Positions 48,088 through 54,984 of a stretch of DNA of 57,868 bases are shown here, piece after piece. This DNA is from Idiomarinaceae bacterium (GTDB lineage Bacteria; Pseudomonadota; Gammaproteobacteria; Enterobacterales; Alteromonadaceae). Below the pieces are notes generated by a model that worked only from the letters and a program-made list of their open reading frames with translations, had not been told where the DNA came from and did no database searches. The number at the start of each line of letters is the position of its first letter. Position 1 is the stretch's first letter. The stretch lies in NCBI GenBank assembly GCA_002685255.1, contig NYWU01000045.1, positions 1 to 57,868 on the forward strand, given 5' to 3'. Position numbers and translations under genes: made by a program.

Positions 48088-51024
48088 CTAGGCTAACTCC
48101 GTTCTATTTCTACCGTTTTGTTTAGCTTCATAAAGTGCCTTATCGGCCGCCACTAGCAATGCACTGTGATTTGGATAGTGTTCACTCGACGCAACGCCAA
48201 TACTGACCGTGACCGATAGCTCGTTGGCAAGATGATTAAACGATGTGTCTTCCACTGTTTGTCGGATGCGCTCAGCCGCTTTGAGTGCCTCTTTGGCATT
48301 AGTTTCAGGCATTAGAAGGGCAAACTCTTCACCACCCCAACGGGCGATATAGTCGACATCTCTAAGCATATTACTGAGTAATGCTGAGAGTTCGATAAGC
48401 ACTTGGTCACCGATGACGTGCAAGTAACGGTCATTAATTAGTTTAAAATGGTCAACATCGATAATCGCAAGAGACAGTGGTTGGGCAGAGCGTTCACAAC
48501 GCTTAACCTCATATTGCAGTTGCTCATCGAACGCGCGTCGGTTGCCCAACTGCGTCAATGAGTCTTGCCGTGCCAAACCTTTCAGCTCCTTGGTTTTTTC
48601 AGCCACCATTAACTCCAGTTGTGTGCGCTGGTTACTTAAGAAACGGATGCGCGCTCTGACTAATATCGTGGTGATGGCAATGCCAGCTAAAGCAATGGTG
48701 AGCCAAAACCACGACTGTTGCCAAGGGTGCTCTGAACGGGTGAAAGCAAAGCTAACGGGCTCGCTCCAAGCGCCGCCAGGATAAGCTGCTCGGACCTGAA
48801 ACACATAATCATTGGCAGGAAGCGAGGTGTATTCTGATGTTGTCATCGACCCGCGAGGTAGCCATTGGTCATCAAAACCCACCAAACGTACCTGATACTC
48901 AATGTGATCAGCCATCAAGTAGCCCAACCCAGCATAGTTGACCACTAAGCGTTGGGTATCTGCAGGAATTCGACTTCCATAACTTACTCGTTTTCCATCA
49001 GCAGTGACTGAAGCAATAACCGCTGGCGGGGCAATTTGCACCATTGCTTTTAAATCAGAAGGTGCAACCGAAGATACTCCCCGAGCGGTGCTCATCCAAA
49101 CGCGACCACTATCACTGCGTATCATCGAGGGGCCGCCGCTATTGACTTGTGAGCTGCCCATGCCATCGACCTCGGTAAAGCGTTGATAGCTGAGTTTATT
49201 GATAGTGCCTTCCAGAAACTTTCCAAATACGTCGTGGGCGATAAAAATCGCTCCACGGTTCGAACCTAACCAAATGTTGGCGTCTCCATCGAACGACATC
49301 GCAAGATAGTTATCAAACGGTAAACCTTGATCACGGTTAATAATTTGCCAGGTGTTATTTTTCTGGTGGTGATATATAAGCCCGCGATCGGTAGCCAAAA
49401 AGACATAAGGACCTTTATGAGTAATTTGGAAAGTGAGTTGCGCATTATGTAAATCAGAGAAGTCGAGTTGTTTTACCGTCCACTTTCCATCCATTGAAGT
49501 CGTTAAATCAACAACTGAAACACCGCTGACCGAAGCGATCCACAACTCGTCATTAATAACCCGTAGCGCGGTAATATAATTGTTCTGTATCCCATCTTGT
49601 GTCGTAATTGTGCGCGTCTGCCATCCCTGATCGGTTTTTATGAGGTGCGTTACGCCTGTCGGGGAGCCAAGAAAAATGCCATATTCATTGGATGTTGTTA
49701 GAGCACGAACTTCCTCAGAGTGAAGCACAGAGTCCGCGGTTAAGTGTTGCGTGACACGCTCACCATCCCACATAAATAATCCGTTCGTGTAGGTACCGAT
49801 GAGCAGTTGATCTTGGTATTGTTCAAAGGACAACACCGATTGATTAGCTAAGGGGTGGGGCGCCTCGAAAGTAGTTAAACGAGACTCGGTCAGTTGGCTG
49901 ATACCGCTACTGGTTCCGACGTAGAGTTTATTTTTGAATTCATAAACGGTGCGAACAAAGTCTCCCGCTAGCCCGTTATGAGACTGCATGGTGGTAAACA
50001 ATGAGCGACGAAATTGCATTAAGCCACCATGGGTCGAGACCCATACGCTGCCCTCTTGATCCTCTAAAATATCAAGCACGTGATTATTCGGAAGACCGGT
50101 TTCGGTGGTGACCTGTTGTAACTCACCTTTAAAAAAACGCAGTATACCGTTGCGGTAGGTTCCTAGCCACAGGGCACCGTCCTGTGTTCTGTTAATTGCG
50201 CTAATAGTATAGTTAATATCCGGCAATAGTTTTTTGAACGTGAAGCTTTCGCCTTGTTGTTGAAACAGACCACTCCCTGTACCAACAAGCAATCGTCCAT
50301 CGTGATCGAGAAACAACTTGCGAATGCGATTATCCGGTAACCCCTCCACTCGCTGAAACTGCGTTGCGCCTGACTTTTTAACCATCAGCCCGCCCGCAGT
50401 TGCGGCCCACAAATTGCCCTCCGTATCGACTCGCGCCTGATACACATTATTAGAGGGCAAGCCATTGTCGGTAGTAAACTGCGACACGCGCTCGTTATTT
50501 TCGTAGTTAATCAGCCCTTGCTCACTGCTCGATACCCAAATCGTGCAATTGCTATCGATTTCAACCTCATTAACGAACGGTGGGGCGGGCTCAAGTGGTA
50601 ACCATCGGTTATCGTGAAAGCGGCTTATACCGCCCCGGGCGCCTGCAACATAGATACTATCGTCACACGGGTTGAGTGCGATTGAGAAAATACCAATATC
50701 GGGTAATCCAGTGACACGAATATCATCGTAAATATCAAAGTCTTTGCCATCAAAACGCACCGGACCTTGCCATGTACCAAACCAAAGAAAACCTTGTTTA
50801 TCTTGGGCAATGGCATTAATTGAGTTGTGCGGCAGACCGTCGCGCGTCGTCCAACTTTGGCGAGTCATGTAGTGTATCGATTGATCAACGGGCAACTCAA
50901 AGTCGATAGTATTGATGGCAGAGCCTGCAGGTGCGCTTTGCGCGTGGCTGTCTATACTGAAGAGCGAAACAGCGATAACGAATGAAAACAGTTTAAGCAT
51001 GTTGGGTATCACGTGTTTGACCAT
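48088..51024 (-). CDS. Beta-propeller sensor diguanylate cyclase
   Basis: About 978 residues. After a signal peptide there are at least twelve two-component-regulator-propeller repeats (recurrent GLP-N-V then LW-GT--G), forming one or two periplasmic beta-propellers, then a Y_Y_Y domain, one membrane helix (about 768-788), a short coiled segment and a GGDEF domain. The active site is RWGGEEFALLMPE (about 893-905) and RDVD five residues before it is an inhibitory I-site, so it should make c-di-GMP in response to a periplasmic ligand, often a glycan for such propellers. ATG at 51024 or 51000 are both possible starts; neither has a clear ribosome site. Confidence 0.9.
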   Translation of the reverse strand: MVKHVIPNMLKLFSFVIAVSLFSIDSHAQSAPAGSAINTIDFELPVDQSIHYMTRQSWTTRDGLPHNSINAIAQDKQGFLWFGTWQGPVRFDGKDFDIYDDIRVTGLPDIGIFSIALNPCDDSIYVAGARGGISRFHDNRWLPLEPAPPFVNEVEIDSNCTIWVSSSEQGLINYENNERVSQFTTDNGLPSNNVYQARVDTEGNLWAATAGGLMVKKSGATQFQRVEGLPDNRIRKLFLDHDGRLLVGTGSGLFQQQGESFTFKKLLPDINYTISAINRTQDGALWLGTYRNGILRFFKGELQQVTTETGLPNNHVLDILEDQEGSVWVSTHGGLMQFRRSLFTTMQSHNGLAGDFVRTVYEFKNKLYVGTSSGISQLTESRLTTFEAPHPLANQSVLSFEQYQDQLLIGTYTNGLFMWDGERVTQHLTADSVLHSEEVRALTTSNEYGIFLGSPTGVTHLIKTDQGWQTRTITTQDGIQNNYITALRVINDELWIASVSGVSVVDLTTSMDGKWTVKQLDFSDLHNAQLTFQITHKGPYVFLATDRGLIYHHQKNNTWQIINRDQGLPFDNYLAMSFDGDANIWLGSNRGAIFIAHDVFGKFLEGTINKLSYQRFTEVDGMGSSQVNSGGPSMIRSDSGRVWMSTARGVSSVAPSDLKAMVQIAPPAVIASVTADGKRVSYGSRIPADTQRLVVNYAGLGYLMADHIEYQVRLVGFDDQWLPRGSMTTSEYTSLPANDYVFQVRAAYPGGAWSEPVSFAFTRSEHPWQQSWFWLTIALAGIAITTILVRARIRFLSNQRTQLELMVAEKTKELKGLARQDSLTQLGNRRAFDEQLQYEVKRCERSAQPLSLAIIDVDHFKLINDRYLHVIGDQVLIELSALLSNMLRDVDYIARWGGEEFALLMPETNAKEALKAAERIRQTVEDTSFNHLANELSVTVSIGVASSEHYPNHSALLVAADKALYEAKQNGRNRTELA

Positions 51025-51144
51025 TAATTCACGACTTAAAGGATTGCTTGCATTCAAATGGTACGTGAATTGTAAATTGATTACCAATACTTACAACATT
51101 CGTAATAACTGAACCTGAAAATATATCAACCTTGGAGATTAAGC

Positions 51145-52197
51145 ATGACTAAATCTTATGCGGCACAATCTGAAACCTCGGGTATGGCTCCCCATACTAT
51201 TGAGCGCCGTGAGCCTCGTGCTGACGATGTAGCCATCGATATTTTGTATTGCGGTGTCTGCCATACCGACATTCATTATGTACAAAACGATTGGGGTGGC
51301 ACGATTTATCCGGTGGTACCGGGGCATGAGATTATTGGGCGTGTCACGCGAGTGGGTGCTGATGTGAAAGACTATAAAGAGGGCGATATTGTCGGCGTGG
51401 GTTGCATGGTTGACTCTTGCCGAAGCTGCGAAGCGTGCGACCAAGGTCTTGAGCAATATTGTTTAAATGGCATGGTGCCGACATACAACGGTGAGGACAA
51501 ACTTGACGGCTCAATAACCTACGGCGGCTACTCAGAAAATGTGGTTGTCAGTGACCGTTTCGTTGTGCGCGTTCCCGATAGCCTCGATCCTGCCAAGAGT
51601 GCTCCTTTGTTATGCGCAGGGATAACCACCTATTCGCCGTTACGCCATTACGGTGTTAAAAAAGGCGATAAGGTTGGCGTCATTGGTATGGGTGGCCTGG
51701 GTCACATGGGCGTCAAATTTGCTAAAGCGATGGGGGCTGAAGTGACATTGTTCACTCGCTCAGAGAGCAAAGTAAAGGAAGCGAAAAAGCAAGGGGCAGA
51801 TCATGTCGTAATTTCTACCGATCCCGAACAGATGGAAGCCGTTGCCGAAACATTTGATTTCATGCTCGACACCGTGCCCGTTCAGCATGATTTGAACCCT
51901 TATTTGAACTGCCTGAAATTTGATGGAACGCATATTTTGGTCGGTTTGCTTGAACCAGTAGACCCCGCATTACAGGCAGGACAACTGGTAATGAAGCGTC
52001 GCGTATTAGCGGGTTCTTTGATTGGTGGAATGCCTGAAACGCAGGAAATGCTCGATTTCTGTGGTGAGCATGGTATCCACTGTGATGTGGAAATGCTTGA
52101 TATTAAAAATATCAATGAGGCCTTTGAGCGAATGAAGAAGGGCGATGTTAAGTATCGATTTGTAATTGATATGGATACTTTGAAGCAATCTGCTTGA
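51145..52197 (+). CDS. Zinc-dependent NAD(P) alcohol dehydrogenase, YahK/CAD-like
   Basis: A 350-residue medium-chain dehydrogenase of the cinnamyl-alcohol dehydrogenase group. The catalytic zinc ligands lie in YCGVCHTDIHY and VPGHEIIG; the structural zinc site is the four cysteines of CRSCEACDQGLEQYC; the cofactor loop is GMGGLGHMGVKFAKAMG. It probably reduces aldehydes with NADPH, like E. coli YahK. TTGGAG lies before the ATG. Divergent from the propeller cyclase. Confidence 0.93.
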   Translation: MTKSYAAQSETSGMAPHTIERREPRADDVAIDILYCGVCHTDIHYVQNDWGGTIYPVVPGHEIIGRVTRVGADVKDYKEGDIVGVGCMVDSCRSCEACDQGLEQYCLNGMVPTYNGEDKLDGSITYGGYSENVVVSDRFVVRVPDSLDPAKSAPLLCAGITTYSPLRHYGVKKGDKVGVIGMGGLGHMGVKFAKAMGAEVTLFTRSESKVKEAKKQGADHVVISTDPEQMEAVAETFDFMLDTVPVQHDLNPYLNCLKFDGTHILVGLLEPVDPALQAGQLVMKRRVLAGSLIGGMPETQEMLDFCGEHGIHCDVEMLDIKNINEAFERMKKGDVKYRFVIDMDTLKQSA

Positions 52198-52215
52198 TTT
52201 AACTAATCTTCAATC

Positions 52216-52257
52216 AAAAAGATTGACGGACATTGATTTTTCCGTCAATCTTTTTTT
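52216..52257 (+). terminator. Terminator after the alcohol dehydrogenase gene
   Basis: A perfect 15-base-arm stem (52216-52230 with 52241-52255) with a 10-base loop, ending in a run of seven T. It separates the dehydrogenase from the downstream diguanylate cyclase. Confidence 0.93.
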
Positions 52258-52280
52258 ATTTGGACGGTTAATCAATCCCC

Positions 52281-53372
52281 GTGAAACAGTTACTTCGTCC
52301 TACCTATATTACCGGTAAGCTTGACCCGAACTTCCGTCGCAACCAGTTGTTGGAAGTGTGTCTGGTTATTGGGGTTATTGCATTGTTGTCATTGGCGGCA
52401 TTAAACGCTTTTTTGTTTAATGATCTGGACCTTGCGCTCATGGACGCCATAGGTGCCGGTATTGCCGGCGGCTTACTTTACTTGCTCAAAAAGCGCTATT
52501 TGATAGAGCTCGTCAGTTGGTTGTTTGTGGTAATGATAGGCTTGTTAATTTCAACATTCTTGTTGTTAGCTGCAGGCAATAATAACGGTTATCTCTGGAC
52601 TGCTTTATTCCCTCCTTTTGCTTTTTTTCTTCTAGGGAAAAATAAAGGTCTTTGGGTTACTGTATTGTTTTTTTCTATATTTATGTTTCAGCTGTACACG
52701 ACAATATTTATTAATAAAGCCCCTCATTTATCTTTAGGAGCCTTTTTAAACACGCTTGAGGTGTTTGTTATAAGCCTTCTTTTGTATCGCTTTTACGAAA
52801 AGACACGGACTGAAGCCAATCAATTATTACATGAACAGAGTGTACGATTGGAGAAAATGGCAAAAACCGATAAGTTGACACAGTTATTTAATCGGCAGTA
52901 CCTCGATTCGACGTTATTTAGTTTGTACAAGAAACGTCGGTCACTACCGATTTCAGTGCTGTTACTTGACGTTGACTTATTCAAGGCAATTAATGATGAA
53001 TACGGTCACTTATTCGGTGACGAAGTACTGATAAAGCTGTCTAAGCGCTTGGCCGAATCTGTAAGAGATTACGATGTGGTGGGTCGCTGGGGTGGAGAAG
53101 AGTTTTTAATCATCGCGCCTAACACATCCCAGCTTGATGCACTGGGTTTGGCTGAGCGTATTCGCAGACAACTTAACATGCAGGTTAATGAGTCGGTGAC
53201 GACCAGTGTCAGTATAGGTGTATCTAGCACTGATAGAGTTAAGAGCCCTGAAGAATTGATATCACAAGCTGATAGAGCCCTGTATCAAGCGAAATCGAAT
53301 GGGCGGAATCAAGTCCGAAGTTTTGTTTCGGCGGTTGAATCTGAACATCGAAAAGTCAATAATACGGCTTAG
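52281..53372 (+). CDS. Membrane-bound diguanylate cyclase
   Basis: A 363-residue protein with about six membrane helices in the first 170 residues, a linker helix and a GGDEF domain. The active site is RWGGEEFLIIAP (about 269-280) and the I-site RDYD stands five residues upstream; DVDLFKAINDEYGHLFGDEVL is the usual metal/substrate segment. It should make c-di-GMP. The start is GTG at 52281 with a poor ribosome site. Its TAG stop contributes a base to the lysine riboswitch that follows. Confidence 0.9.
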   Translation: MKQLLRPTYITGKLDPNFRRNQLLEVCLVIGVIALLSLAALNAFLFNDLDLALMDAIGAGIAGGLLYLLKKRYLIELVSWLFVVMIGLLISTFLLLAAGNNNGYLWTALFPPFAFFLLGKNKGLWVTVLFFSIFMFQLYTTIFINKAPHLSLGAFLNTLEVFVISLLLYRFYEKTRTEANQLLHEQSVRLEKMAKTDKLTQLFNRQYLDSTLFSLYKKRRSLPISVLLLDVDLFKAINDEYGHLFGDEVLIKLSKRLAESVRDYDVVGRWGGEEFLIIAPNTSQLDALGLAERIRRQLNMQVNESVTTSVSIGVSSTDRVKSPEELISQADRALYQAKSNGRNQVRSFVSAVESEHRKVNNTA

Positions 53373-53601
53373 GAAGAGGTGCGGTTGCTAGGTAACATTA
53401 CTGACTGAGTTCCAACACGCAAGTAATGTGAGGGAGTTAACCGCCGAGGTAGTTCATTGGTTGGACAATGTGTTACCGACTGTTGGGTTTGAAAACCTGC
53501 AGTTGTCACCTATCGGGTGGAGAGCTTCTGGCTGCATTTTTGAGTCATCTCAGCGTGGACCAAGCTCTCTGAACATTGTTGTAATTTGTTCAGAGGATCA
53601 A
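53372..53601 (+). promoter_or_regulatory. Lysine riboswitch (L-box) controlling lysC
   Basis: The leader has the hallmark blocks of the lysine riboswitch in order: GAAGAGGTGCGG, AACCGCCGAGG, GACTGTTGGG and CAGTTGTCACC. The helices can be traced: P2 53381-53386 with 53439-53444; P2b 53395-53402 with 53422-53429; P3 CATTG 53455-53459 with CAATG 53466-53470; P4 53486-53490 with 53493-53497; P5 CACC 53507-53510 with GGTG 53516-53519; a short P1 53372-53376 with 53525-53529. The expression platform has a ribosome-site sequestering stem, 53567-53575 with 53587-53595, competing with 53520-53527 pairing to 53562-53569. No U-tract, so control is probably translational, shutting lysC when lysine is high. 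Confidence 0.93.
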
Positions 53602-54984
53602 ATGAATCAACTTCAGAATAATCTCAGTATCGCCAAATTCGGCGGCACCAGCGTTGCAACTTATGACGCTATTTCCGCAGCTGTAGCCAATGTACAGCAA
53701 CAAACTCAACGTTTAATCGTAGTGGTCAGTGCCTGTGGTGGCGTGACCGACGCGCTGGTTAAAATCGCACATATGGCGAGCAATAGTGCGGATAGTTTGG
53801 CACAGATAGAGCAGCGTCATCAGACGATTCTTTCTCAAGTCTCTCGGTTGAGACAACCCCGTTTACTCTATTGGCAGACTGCGCTTGAGTGTATTCATGC
53901 TGATTTGCGTCAGCATTTAGAGGAGAGACCGGGTGAAACGTCGACGCGCTTTTCCCAATGGCGTGATCGATTGTTGAGTTTTGGGGAGCGCTGCTCAAGT
54001 TTGTTATTTTGTGCTGTGTGGGAAGAACAAACTCAAACGATGGCTGAGGTGATGACCGCTGAAACGTGGTTGGTTACTGATGAACGCTTTGGCCATGCGC
54101 GTCCGAATATGGACGCAACCCGCACCAAAACAGCTCAACAATTGCTTACCTTAAACTCGGACATTCAGTATGTCACGCAAGGGTTTATTGGCGCCACCGA
54201 AGCGGGCTTGACAACGACGTTAGGAAGAGGGGGGAGTGACTACAGCGCAGCGCTGCTTGCAGTGGCGACAGGGGCCAGTGAAGTGCAAATTTGGACCGAT
54301 GTCGCGGGCGTCTATTCCACCGATCCTCGCCTGTGTAAGGAAGCGTTCCCTATTCCAGAAATGAGCTTTGACGAAGCGGCAGAGATGGCAACTTTTGGCG
54401 CAAAAGTGCTACACCCAGCAAGCTTGATTCCCGCAATCGAGCACAATATTCCGGTTTTTGTGGGTCATAGCCAGTTTCCAGAGCGTGGCGGCACTCGACT
54501 GGTGAAAAATACCGTTTTTCGCCCTGACGTACGTGCGATTGCTGTGCGTAAAAAGCAAACGCTGATGACGGTGCATAGTATTGATATGTTCCATGCATCG
54601 GGTTTTTTGGCGAAGCTTTTTGGCATTTTCGCTAAATACGACATCAGTGTTGATTTGATTACCACATCGGAGGTGAGTATCGCCCTGACCTTGGATGAAG
54701 GCGGCAGTCAAGCCAATAACCAAGTCACTTTACCCTCGGCTGCGATTGACGAGATTGAAGCCTTCGCTCGGGTCGAGCTAGAACAGGATTTATCGTTAGT
54801 GGCACTCATCGGTAACCAAATTGGACGACAGTCCCAGCTCAGCCAGTGGGTTTTTGACGCTGTATCACCTACACCGGTGCGTATGATATGCCAAGGTGCA
54901 AGTGCTTATAACCTGTGCTTTTTAATTCCGTCATCCGATACCGATTCGGTGGTTAATCGGTTACATGAACGGATAAAGCGATAA
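53602..54984 (+). CDS. lysC: Lysine-sensitive aspartate kinase
   Basis: Monofunctional aspartokinase III-type, 460 residues (E. coli LysC 449), phosphorylating aspartate at the head of the lysine branch. It opens with IAKFGGTSVATYDAI, the kinase signature; FIGATEAGLTTTLGRGGSDYSA is the aspartate/ATP region; the C-terminal half has two ACT domains (IDMFHASGFLAKLFGIFAKY onward) for feedback. The ATG at 53602 follows AGAGGA. The frame is open upstream to 53428, but that stretch is the riboswitch and not coding. Confidence 0.95.
   Translation: MNQLQNNLSIAKFGGTSVATYDAISAAVANVQQQTQRLIVVVSACGGVTDALVKIAHMASNSADSLAQIEQRHQTILSQVSRLRQPRLLYWQTALECIHADLRQHLEERPGETSTRFSQWRDRLLSFGERCSSLLFCAVWEEQTQTMAEVMTAETWLVTDERFGHARPNMDATRTKTAQQLLTLNSDIQYVTQGFIGATEAGLTTTLGRGGSDYSAALLAVATGASEVQIWTDVAGVYSTDPRLCKEAFPIPEMSFDEAAEMATFGAKVLHPASLIPAIEHNIPVFVGHSQFPERGGTRLVKNTVFRPDVRAIAVRKKQTLMTVHSIDMFHASGFLAKLFGIFAKYDISVDLITTSEVSIALTLDEGGSQANNQVTLPSAAIDEIEAFARVELEQDLSLVALIGNQIGRQSQLSQWVFDAVSPTPVRMICQGASAYNLCFLIPSSDTDSVVNRLHERIKR

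Follow-up and report, generated by a model that had tools for sequence, protein, structure and literature searches.

A lysine riboswitch with a predicted translational platform ahead of lysC in Idiomarina, and its probable promoter in the last codons of a diguanylate cyclase gene

The lysC locus and its aptamer

The window described here (the whole stretch of 57,868 nucleotides that was analysed) comes from a marine bacterium with an Idiomarina genome of 2.77 Mb in 46 contigs, whose nearest named relative, as judged by LysC, is Idiomarina sp. MD25a (95%). The part of the window that is considered here carries a cyclase gene, an aptamer and an aspartokinase gene, all on the forward strand:

52281..53372, + strand: MASE6-GGDEF diguanylate cyclase gene, 5' of the riboswitch (Pfam PF20966 and PF00990; stop codon TAG at 53370-53372)
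53366..53535, + strand: lysine riboswitch aptamer, RF00168 (cmscan, full length; P1 formed by 53372-53376 and 53525-53529)
53411..53416, + strand: L2 loop segment UCCAAC, a kissing-loop candidate (six Watson-Crick pairs with the L3 segment)
53460..53465, + strand: L3 loop segment GUUGGA, the complement of UCCAAC
53602..54984, + strand: lysC, lysine-sensitive aspartokinase III (NCBIfam NF006570; Pfam AA_kinase and ACT_9)

An earlier note, made from the letters of the window, had proposed a lysine riboswitch and named the Rfam covariance model as one means of checking it. That search returned a full-length match to RF00168 (75.7 bits, E 5.1e-18, model positions 1-182 of 182), well over the gathering score of 30 that defines membership, and the aptamer thus stands clearly above chance. 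Nothing else in the window reaches an Rfam gathering score, and an RF00168 search of the same genome found no second lysine riboswitch. The expectation that lysC is the target was likewise borne out, as the protein that starts at ATG 53602 scores 543.5 bits against the equivalog model NF006570 (cutoff 455); the aptamer is therefore followed by a gene of lysine biosynthesis, encoding an aspartokinase of type III, which is the gene context expected of this family (a gene for lysine biosynthesis or transport downstream).

Pairing between loops L2 and L3 is a feature of the lysine riboswitch family. The window has six such Watson-Crick pairs, a number that shuffling of L2, pooled across 18 leaders, reaches in 1.5% of loops, and its 17 relatives within the genus have between three and seven, with just three in four of the genus leaders. 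The 18 genus leaders have a mean of 4.9 pairs; exchanging loops between genomes (284 swaps) lowers it to 3.9, and shuffling L2 to 3.1. The window thus shares with the family a full-length match, a lysine biosynthesis gene in cis and L2-L3 complementarity, and its aptamer would be expected to bind lysine. Its score of 75.7 bits lies below 16 of the 17 found in the other families of the order (79.9-136.9; the remaining one scores 63.7), and its P1 helix (GGAAG at 53372-53376 with CTTCT at 53525-53529) has only 5 base pairs.

Several further features surround the cyclase gene. One gene away, on the reverse strand (48088-51087), lies a frame for a 999-aa Reg_prop / GGDEF protein, and the genome as a whole holds 22 cyclase matches at E <= 1e-20, the cyclase itself counted. 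The gap between an alcohol dehydrogenase gene and the cyclase contains a terminator-like stem (52219-52257; 12 bp, a 10-nt loop and a T run, identified by eye) that I. baltica, I. fontislapidosi and MD25a share; the terminator scan accepts loops of 3-8 nucleotides only, and therefore does not list it.

Arms of the platform and their conservation

Between the aptamer and lysC lie the elements of a candidate expression platform:

53520..53527, + strand: anti-sequester 5' arm, GAGAGCTT (overlaps the P1 3' strand; part of a 10-bp helix, 53518-53527, that includes G-U pairs)
53562..53569, + strand: anti-sequester 3' arm, AAGCTCTC (extends to 53571 with G-U pairs; overlaps the sequester 5' arm)
53567..53575, + strand: sequester stem 5' arm, CTCTGAACA (pairs with 53587-53595)
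53587..53595, + strand: sequester stem 3' arm, TGTTCAGAG (its 3' end lies inside the Shine-Dalgarno sequence)
53592..53597, + strand: Shine-Dalgarno sequence AGAGGA, assigned from sequence (GAGG 5 nt before ATG 53602-53604)

All of the arms that the earlier note had described (P1, anti-sequester, sequester and AGAGGA) were found at the positions it gave. The two anti-sequester arms are exact reverse complements over eight nucleotides, with two G-U pairs bringing the helix to ten; the Watson-Crick portion of this helix shares 3 nt with the sequester 5' arm. The sequester stem itself gains one G-U pair (53566-53596).

When P1 was forced in ViennaRNA folds of the window, the sequester stem formed with a probability of 0.99. 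When the anti-sequester was forced instead, GAG at 53593-53595 became unpaired with probabilities of 0.83-0.91 (G53596, 0.32; A53597, 0.44) while six upper pairs of the hairpin were kept, so that the part predicted to open is the base of the stem, which holds GAGGA. The mean unpaired probability of the Shine-Dalgarno hexamer in the window was 0.20 with P1 forced versus 0.60 with the anti-sequester forced, and in 20 of 22 aligned leaders (the exceptions being L115 and L012) the homologous hexamer, its position in relatives set by alignment, was likewise more open with the anti-sequester; because forcing the anti-sequester breaks the overlapping sequester pairs by construction, this agreement represents consistency rather than proof. 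The ‘three-way exclusive switch’ originally proposed is accordingly retained in part: competition between P1 and the anti-sequester stands, but exclusivity does not, since the upper sequester hairpin persists in folds of the anti-sequester state. The folds thus support a competition among P1, the anti-sequester and the Shine-Dalgarno stem that would be partial rather than fully exclusive.

Left unconstrained, the leader folded without P1 and with the platform states mixed (probability 0.68 for the anti-sequester and 0.82 for the sequester), and for that reason does not represent a clean thermodynamic switch in the ligand-free state; the mixture may reflect a model that contains neither lysine nor folding during transcription. 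Folding of the whole leader was only modestly better than that of shuffled sequences (z -1.74; 10/200). In the window, pairing of the linker with the 13 nt that include the anti-sequester arm has an energy of -13.8 kcal/mol, which 38 of 1000 shuffled linkers also reach, and the same test in the 16 relatives that possess the platform gave 9 to 57 of 1000.

The comparison within the genus drew upon 19 Idiomarina genomes, including the window's own. Seventeen of its 18 relatives have one RF00168 match each, and in all 17 a lysC match lies downstream. The eighteenth (G014, 99% complete) has neither an RF00168 match nor an AKIII-type lysC match; its best aspartokinase match, to an 822-aa frame, has 31% identity and spans residues 4-301, and the switch and the AKIII-type gene are therefore absent together.

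For the platform itself, 28 leaders were compared, with L002-L009, L011 and L013 (other families of the order, with no lysC match) and nine second RF00168 matches from outside the genus set aside. The 10-bp anti-sequester helix is found in 17 of the 18 Idiomarina leaders (the window and 16 of 17 relatives) and in five of the ten leaders examined outside the genus (L010, L012, L014, L016 and L023). These 22 leaders, chosen for having the platform, make up the alignment termed A1. The five others from outside the genus (L015, L017, L018, L020 and L021), whose best pairings differ and are shorter or rich in G-U pairs, were excluded from it, as was L019, the genus leader without an anti-sequester. 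L019 (genome G013) is the sole genus leader of the 18 to be without both the conserved platform and the TTGA of the -35 element described below; LysC in this genome shows 42% identity, and the 1.5 kb upstream gave neither a dehydrogenase nor a cyclase match.

In A1 all 220 anti-sequester cells are paired (10 of 10 pairs in 22 leaders), versus 21-61% when the arms are slid by 1-3 columns, a count that measures preservation and not frequency, because the rows were picked for the platform. Five of the ten pairs vary; since the 5' arm is invariant, every change is one-sided, there are no two-sided changes, and column shuffles are uninformative (500/500). The sequester stem, counted without gaps in the same 22 leaders, has 86.8% of its cells paired versus 29-58% when slid, and shows two-sided changes at three pairs (nine cells). 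Three two-sided pairs were reached in 33 of 500 shuffles, nine cells in none of 500 and the observed number of pair types in 201 of 500, and two of the slid versions also give two two-sided pairs. One sequester pair is unpaired in 11 of the 22 rows in the ungapped count; when folded, nine of those rows bulge out 1 nt of the 3' arm, L012 is bulged in the 5' arm instead, and L023 forms an unbulged 8-bp stem.

A platform that arose by chance was rejected on the strength of this conservation, despite the 38 of 1000 shuffles that match the duplex energy in the window. Conservation is stronger evidence for the platform than the statistics of the window alone. Together with the constrained folds, the conserved arms support the earlier proposal of a translational platform in which P1 competes with the anti-sequester.

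A probable promoter near the end of the cyclase gene

The weak -35/-10 pair that had been suggested near 53335 and 53360 was located by a consensus scan, within the final codons of the GGDEF gene:

53335..53363, + strand: probable lysC promoter (-35 TTGAAT at 53335-53340, a 17-nt spacer and -10 AATAAT at 53358-53363)

The scan by itself does not exceed shuffled sequence (two sites versus a mean of 3.2), and the promoter was accepted only through relatives. TTGA is present 38-39 nt before the GAAGAGG of P1 (53373 in the window) in 17 of the 18 genus leaders (L019 is the exception), and a -10-like hexamer follows it in each of the 17 (by eye). Twelve of them have the site outside the upstream gene and four inside a cyclase gene; in the remaining one it falls on the upstream gene's stop codon.

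What lies upstream of that conserved site differs from leader to leader. Eleven of the 17 have no intervening cyclase, and a match to the alcohol dehydrogenase of the window ends 42-54 nt before GAAGAGG. The other six have a cyclase directly upstream: in L113 and L115 it shares 38-39% identity and stops 35 and 52 nt, respectively, before GAAGAGG (the TGA stop of L113 falling within TTGA), while in the remaining four (the window, MD25a or L022, I. fontislapidosi or L117, and I. baltica or L024) the stop position is the same, with the cyclase tail crossing the promoter and TAG standing directly before GAAGAGG. The claim that the 5' strand of P1 uses the last base of the stop codon proved exact (TAG at 53370-53372, P1 from 53372). 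This overlap is best explained by a putative promoter in the last codons of the preceding gene, and the simplest account of the distribution would be that the promoter is old and that the cyclase frame lengthened to cover it in the group to which the window belongs. The usual distance from a -10 element to the start of transcription would put the RNA start near 53369-53372, at the base of P1, and the promoter is predicted from sequence to be active and to direct initiation there.

Inspected by eye, the -35/-10 spacer is taken up by an inverted repeat in L025, L026, L027, L028, L029, L030, L112, L114, L116 and L118, all of them leaders without the cyclase; the repeat may represent the end of the dehydrogenase RNA or an operator, and was not seen in the window's group.

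Proposed control of lysC and its place among known systems

The observations are best drawn together as a lysine riboswitch whose translational platform represses lysC and whose promoter lies in the last codons of the upstream gene, a reading that is given a probability of about 0.9. The RNA would most likely start at or next to the TAG of the cyclase, driven by the promoter just named. With lysine bound, the aptamer would hold P1 and make its 3' strand unavailable; the sequester stem (53567-53575 with 53587-53595) would then form, hiding the Shine-Dalgarno sequence and turning lysC off. Without lysine, 53518-53527 would pair with 53562-53571 and the base of the sequester would open, so that ribosomes could start. 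The direction of this regulation, with lysine lowering the translation of lysC, is what we infer from the arrangement of the arms.

The same aptamer might instead act mainly on the level of the mRNA, by exposing sites for RNase E or a site for Rho, with the Shine-Dalgarno stem secondary. Such a mode is described in passages of a report on E. coli lysC (PMC5234074); in Idiomarina, the linker varies across the genus in both length and sequence, unlike the sequester and anti-sequester arms, and inspection by eye reveals no conserved cleavage site, so that this possibility is considered unlikely, though not negligible.

The preferred reading, with its own promoter for lysC, must also be weighed against expression of lysC mainly through read-through from the cyclase, whereby the folding of P1 would compete with the ribosome that terminates at TAG 53370-53372. 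There is no intergenic space between cyclase and riboswitch, in four genomes the stop codon is where P1 starts, and the sole terminator-like site near the end of the gene is weak (5 pairs, 53300-53317). However, TTGA keeps its distance from P1 where the upstream gene ends before it, which argues for a private promoter and makes predominant read-through improbable; of the two origins first offered for the lysC transcript, a promoter inside the preceding gene is thus the better supported and read-through the one set aside. The further idea that cyclase-terminating ribosomes on read-through RNA disturb P1, and so tie lysC to the expression of a c-di-GMP enzyme in the baltica/fontislapidosi/MD25a/window group, where the frame would have grown across the promoter, is distinctly speculative.

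A role for the stem at 53567-53595 as an intrinsic terminator, with attenuation of transcription rather than of translation, was rejected. The stem does form a hairpin (9-10 bp, -12.9 kcal/mol when folded locally), but it is followed by GATCAAATGAATC, in which there is no T run (53596-53612), as is expected of a platform that acts on translation; nor do the aligned leaders have a T run there. The Shine-Dalgarno sequence, moreover, sits in its 3' arm. A scan of 52150-53650 lists no terminator 3' of the aptamer, although its loop limit of 8 would miss this 11-nt loop. Taken together, these points render termination at the stem very improbable.

The longer open frame that had been flagged as potentially misleading does exist (210 nt open before ATG 53602, with a GTG at 53428), but a longer LysC that starts there, with the aptamer match as coding sequence, was rejected as next to impossible, given that the in-frame open stretch is not conserved in length (9 to 210 nt in 17 leaders, none reaching the start of the aptamer), that the frame would overlie part of the RF00168 match, and that ATG 53602 has a Shine-Dalgarno sequence and a position corresponding to the starts in other leaders. 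A start call at 53428 is very likely wrong.

Translational repression of lysC by lysine, the reading retained, has close counterparts. Passages of two reports on the E. coli lysC riboswitch describe control of both ribosome access and RNase E cleavage (PMC5584792, PMC5234074), the latter also mentioning a predicted anti-P1 stem, and an overlap of aptamer and platform matching the translational variant of E. coli lysC appears in part of a third (PMC13273304). The likeness to the window extends to the same gene and to control at the ribosome site, which is predicted in the window; the role of RNase E is described there for E. coli. Closer at hand, L012, L014, L016, L010 and L023, from other genera of the same family or order, have the same 10-bp anti-sequester and a stem before the start codon, with a P1 longer than that of the window; three of them (L012, L014 and L016) have no lysC match and seem by eye to precede dapA. 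None of the papers searched joins Idiomarina with a lysine riboswitch.

The window thus holds an ordinary member of a well-known class, one that the earlier note had described correctly in nearly every detail, and its one mildly unusual point is the tail of the cyclase gene that lies over the probable lysC promoter. Views of riboswitch biology are unchanged by it. What it adds is a well-supported Idiomarina example with a readable and conserved translational platform, together with a small case in which the C-terminal tail of one gene overlies the probable promoter of its neighbour.
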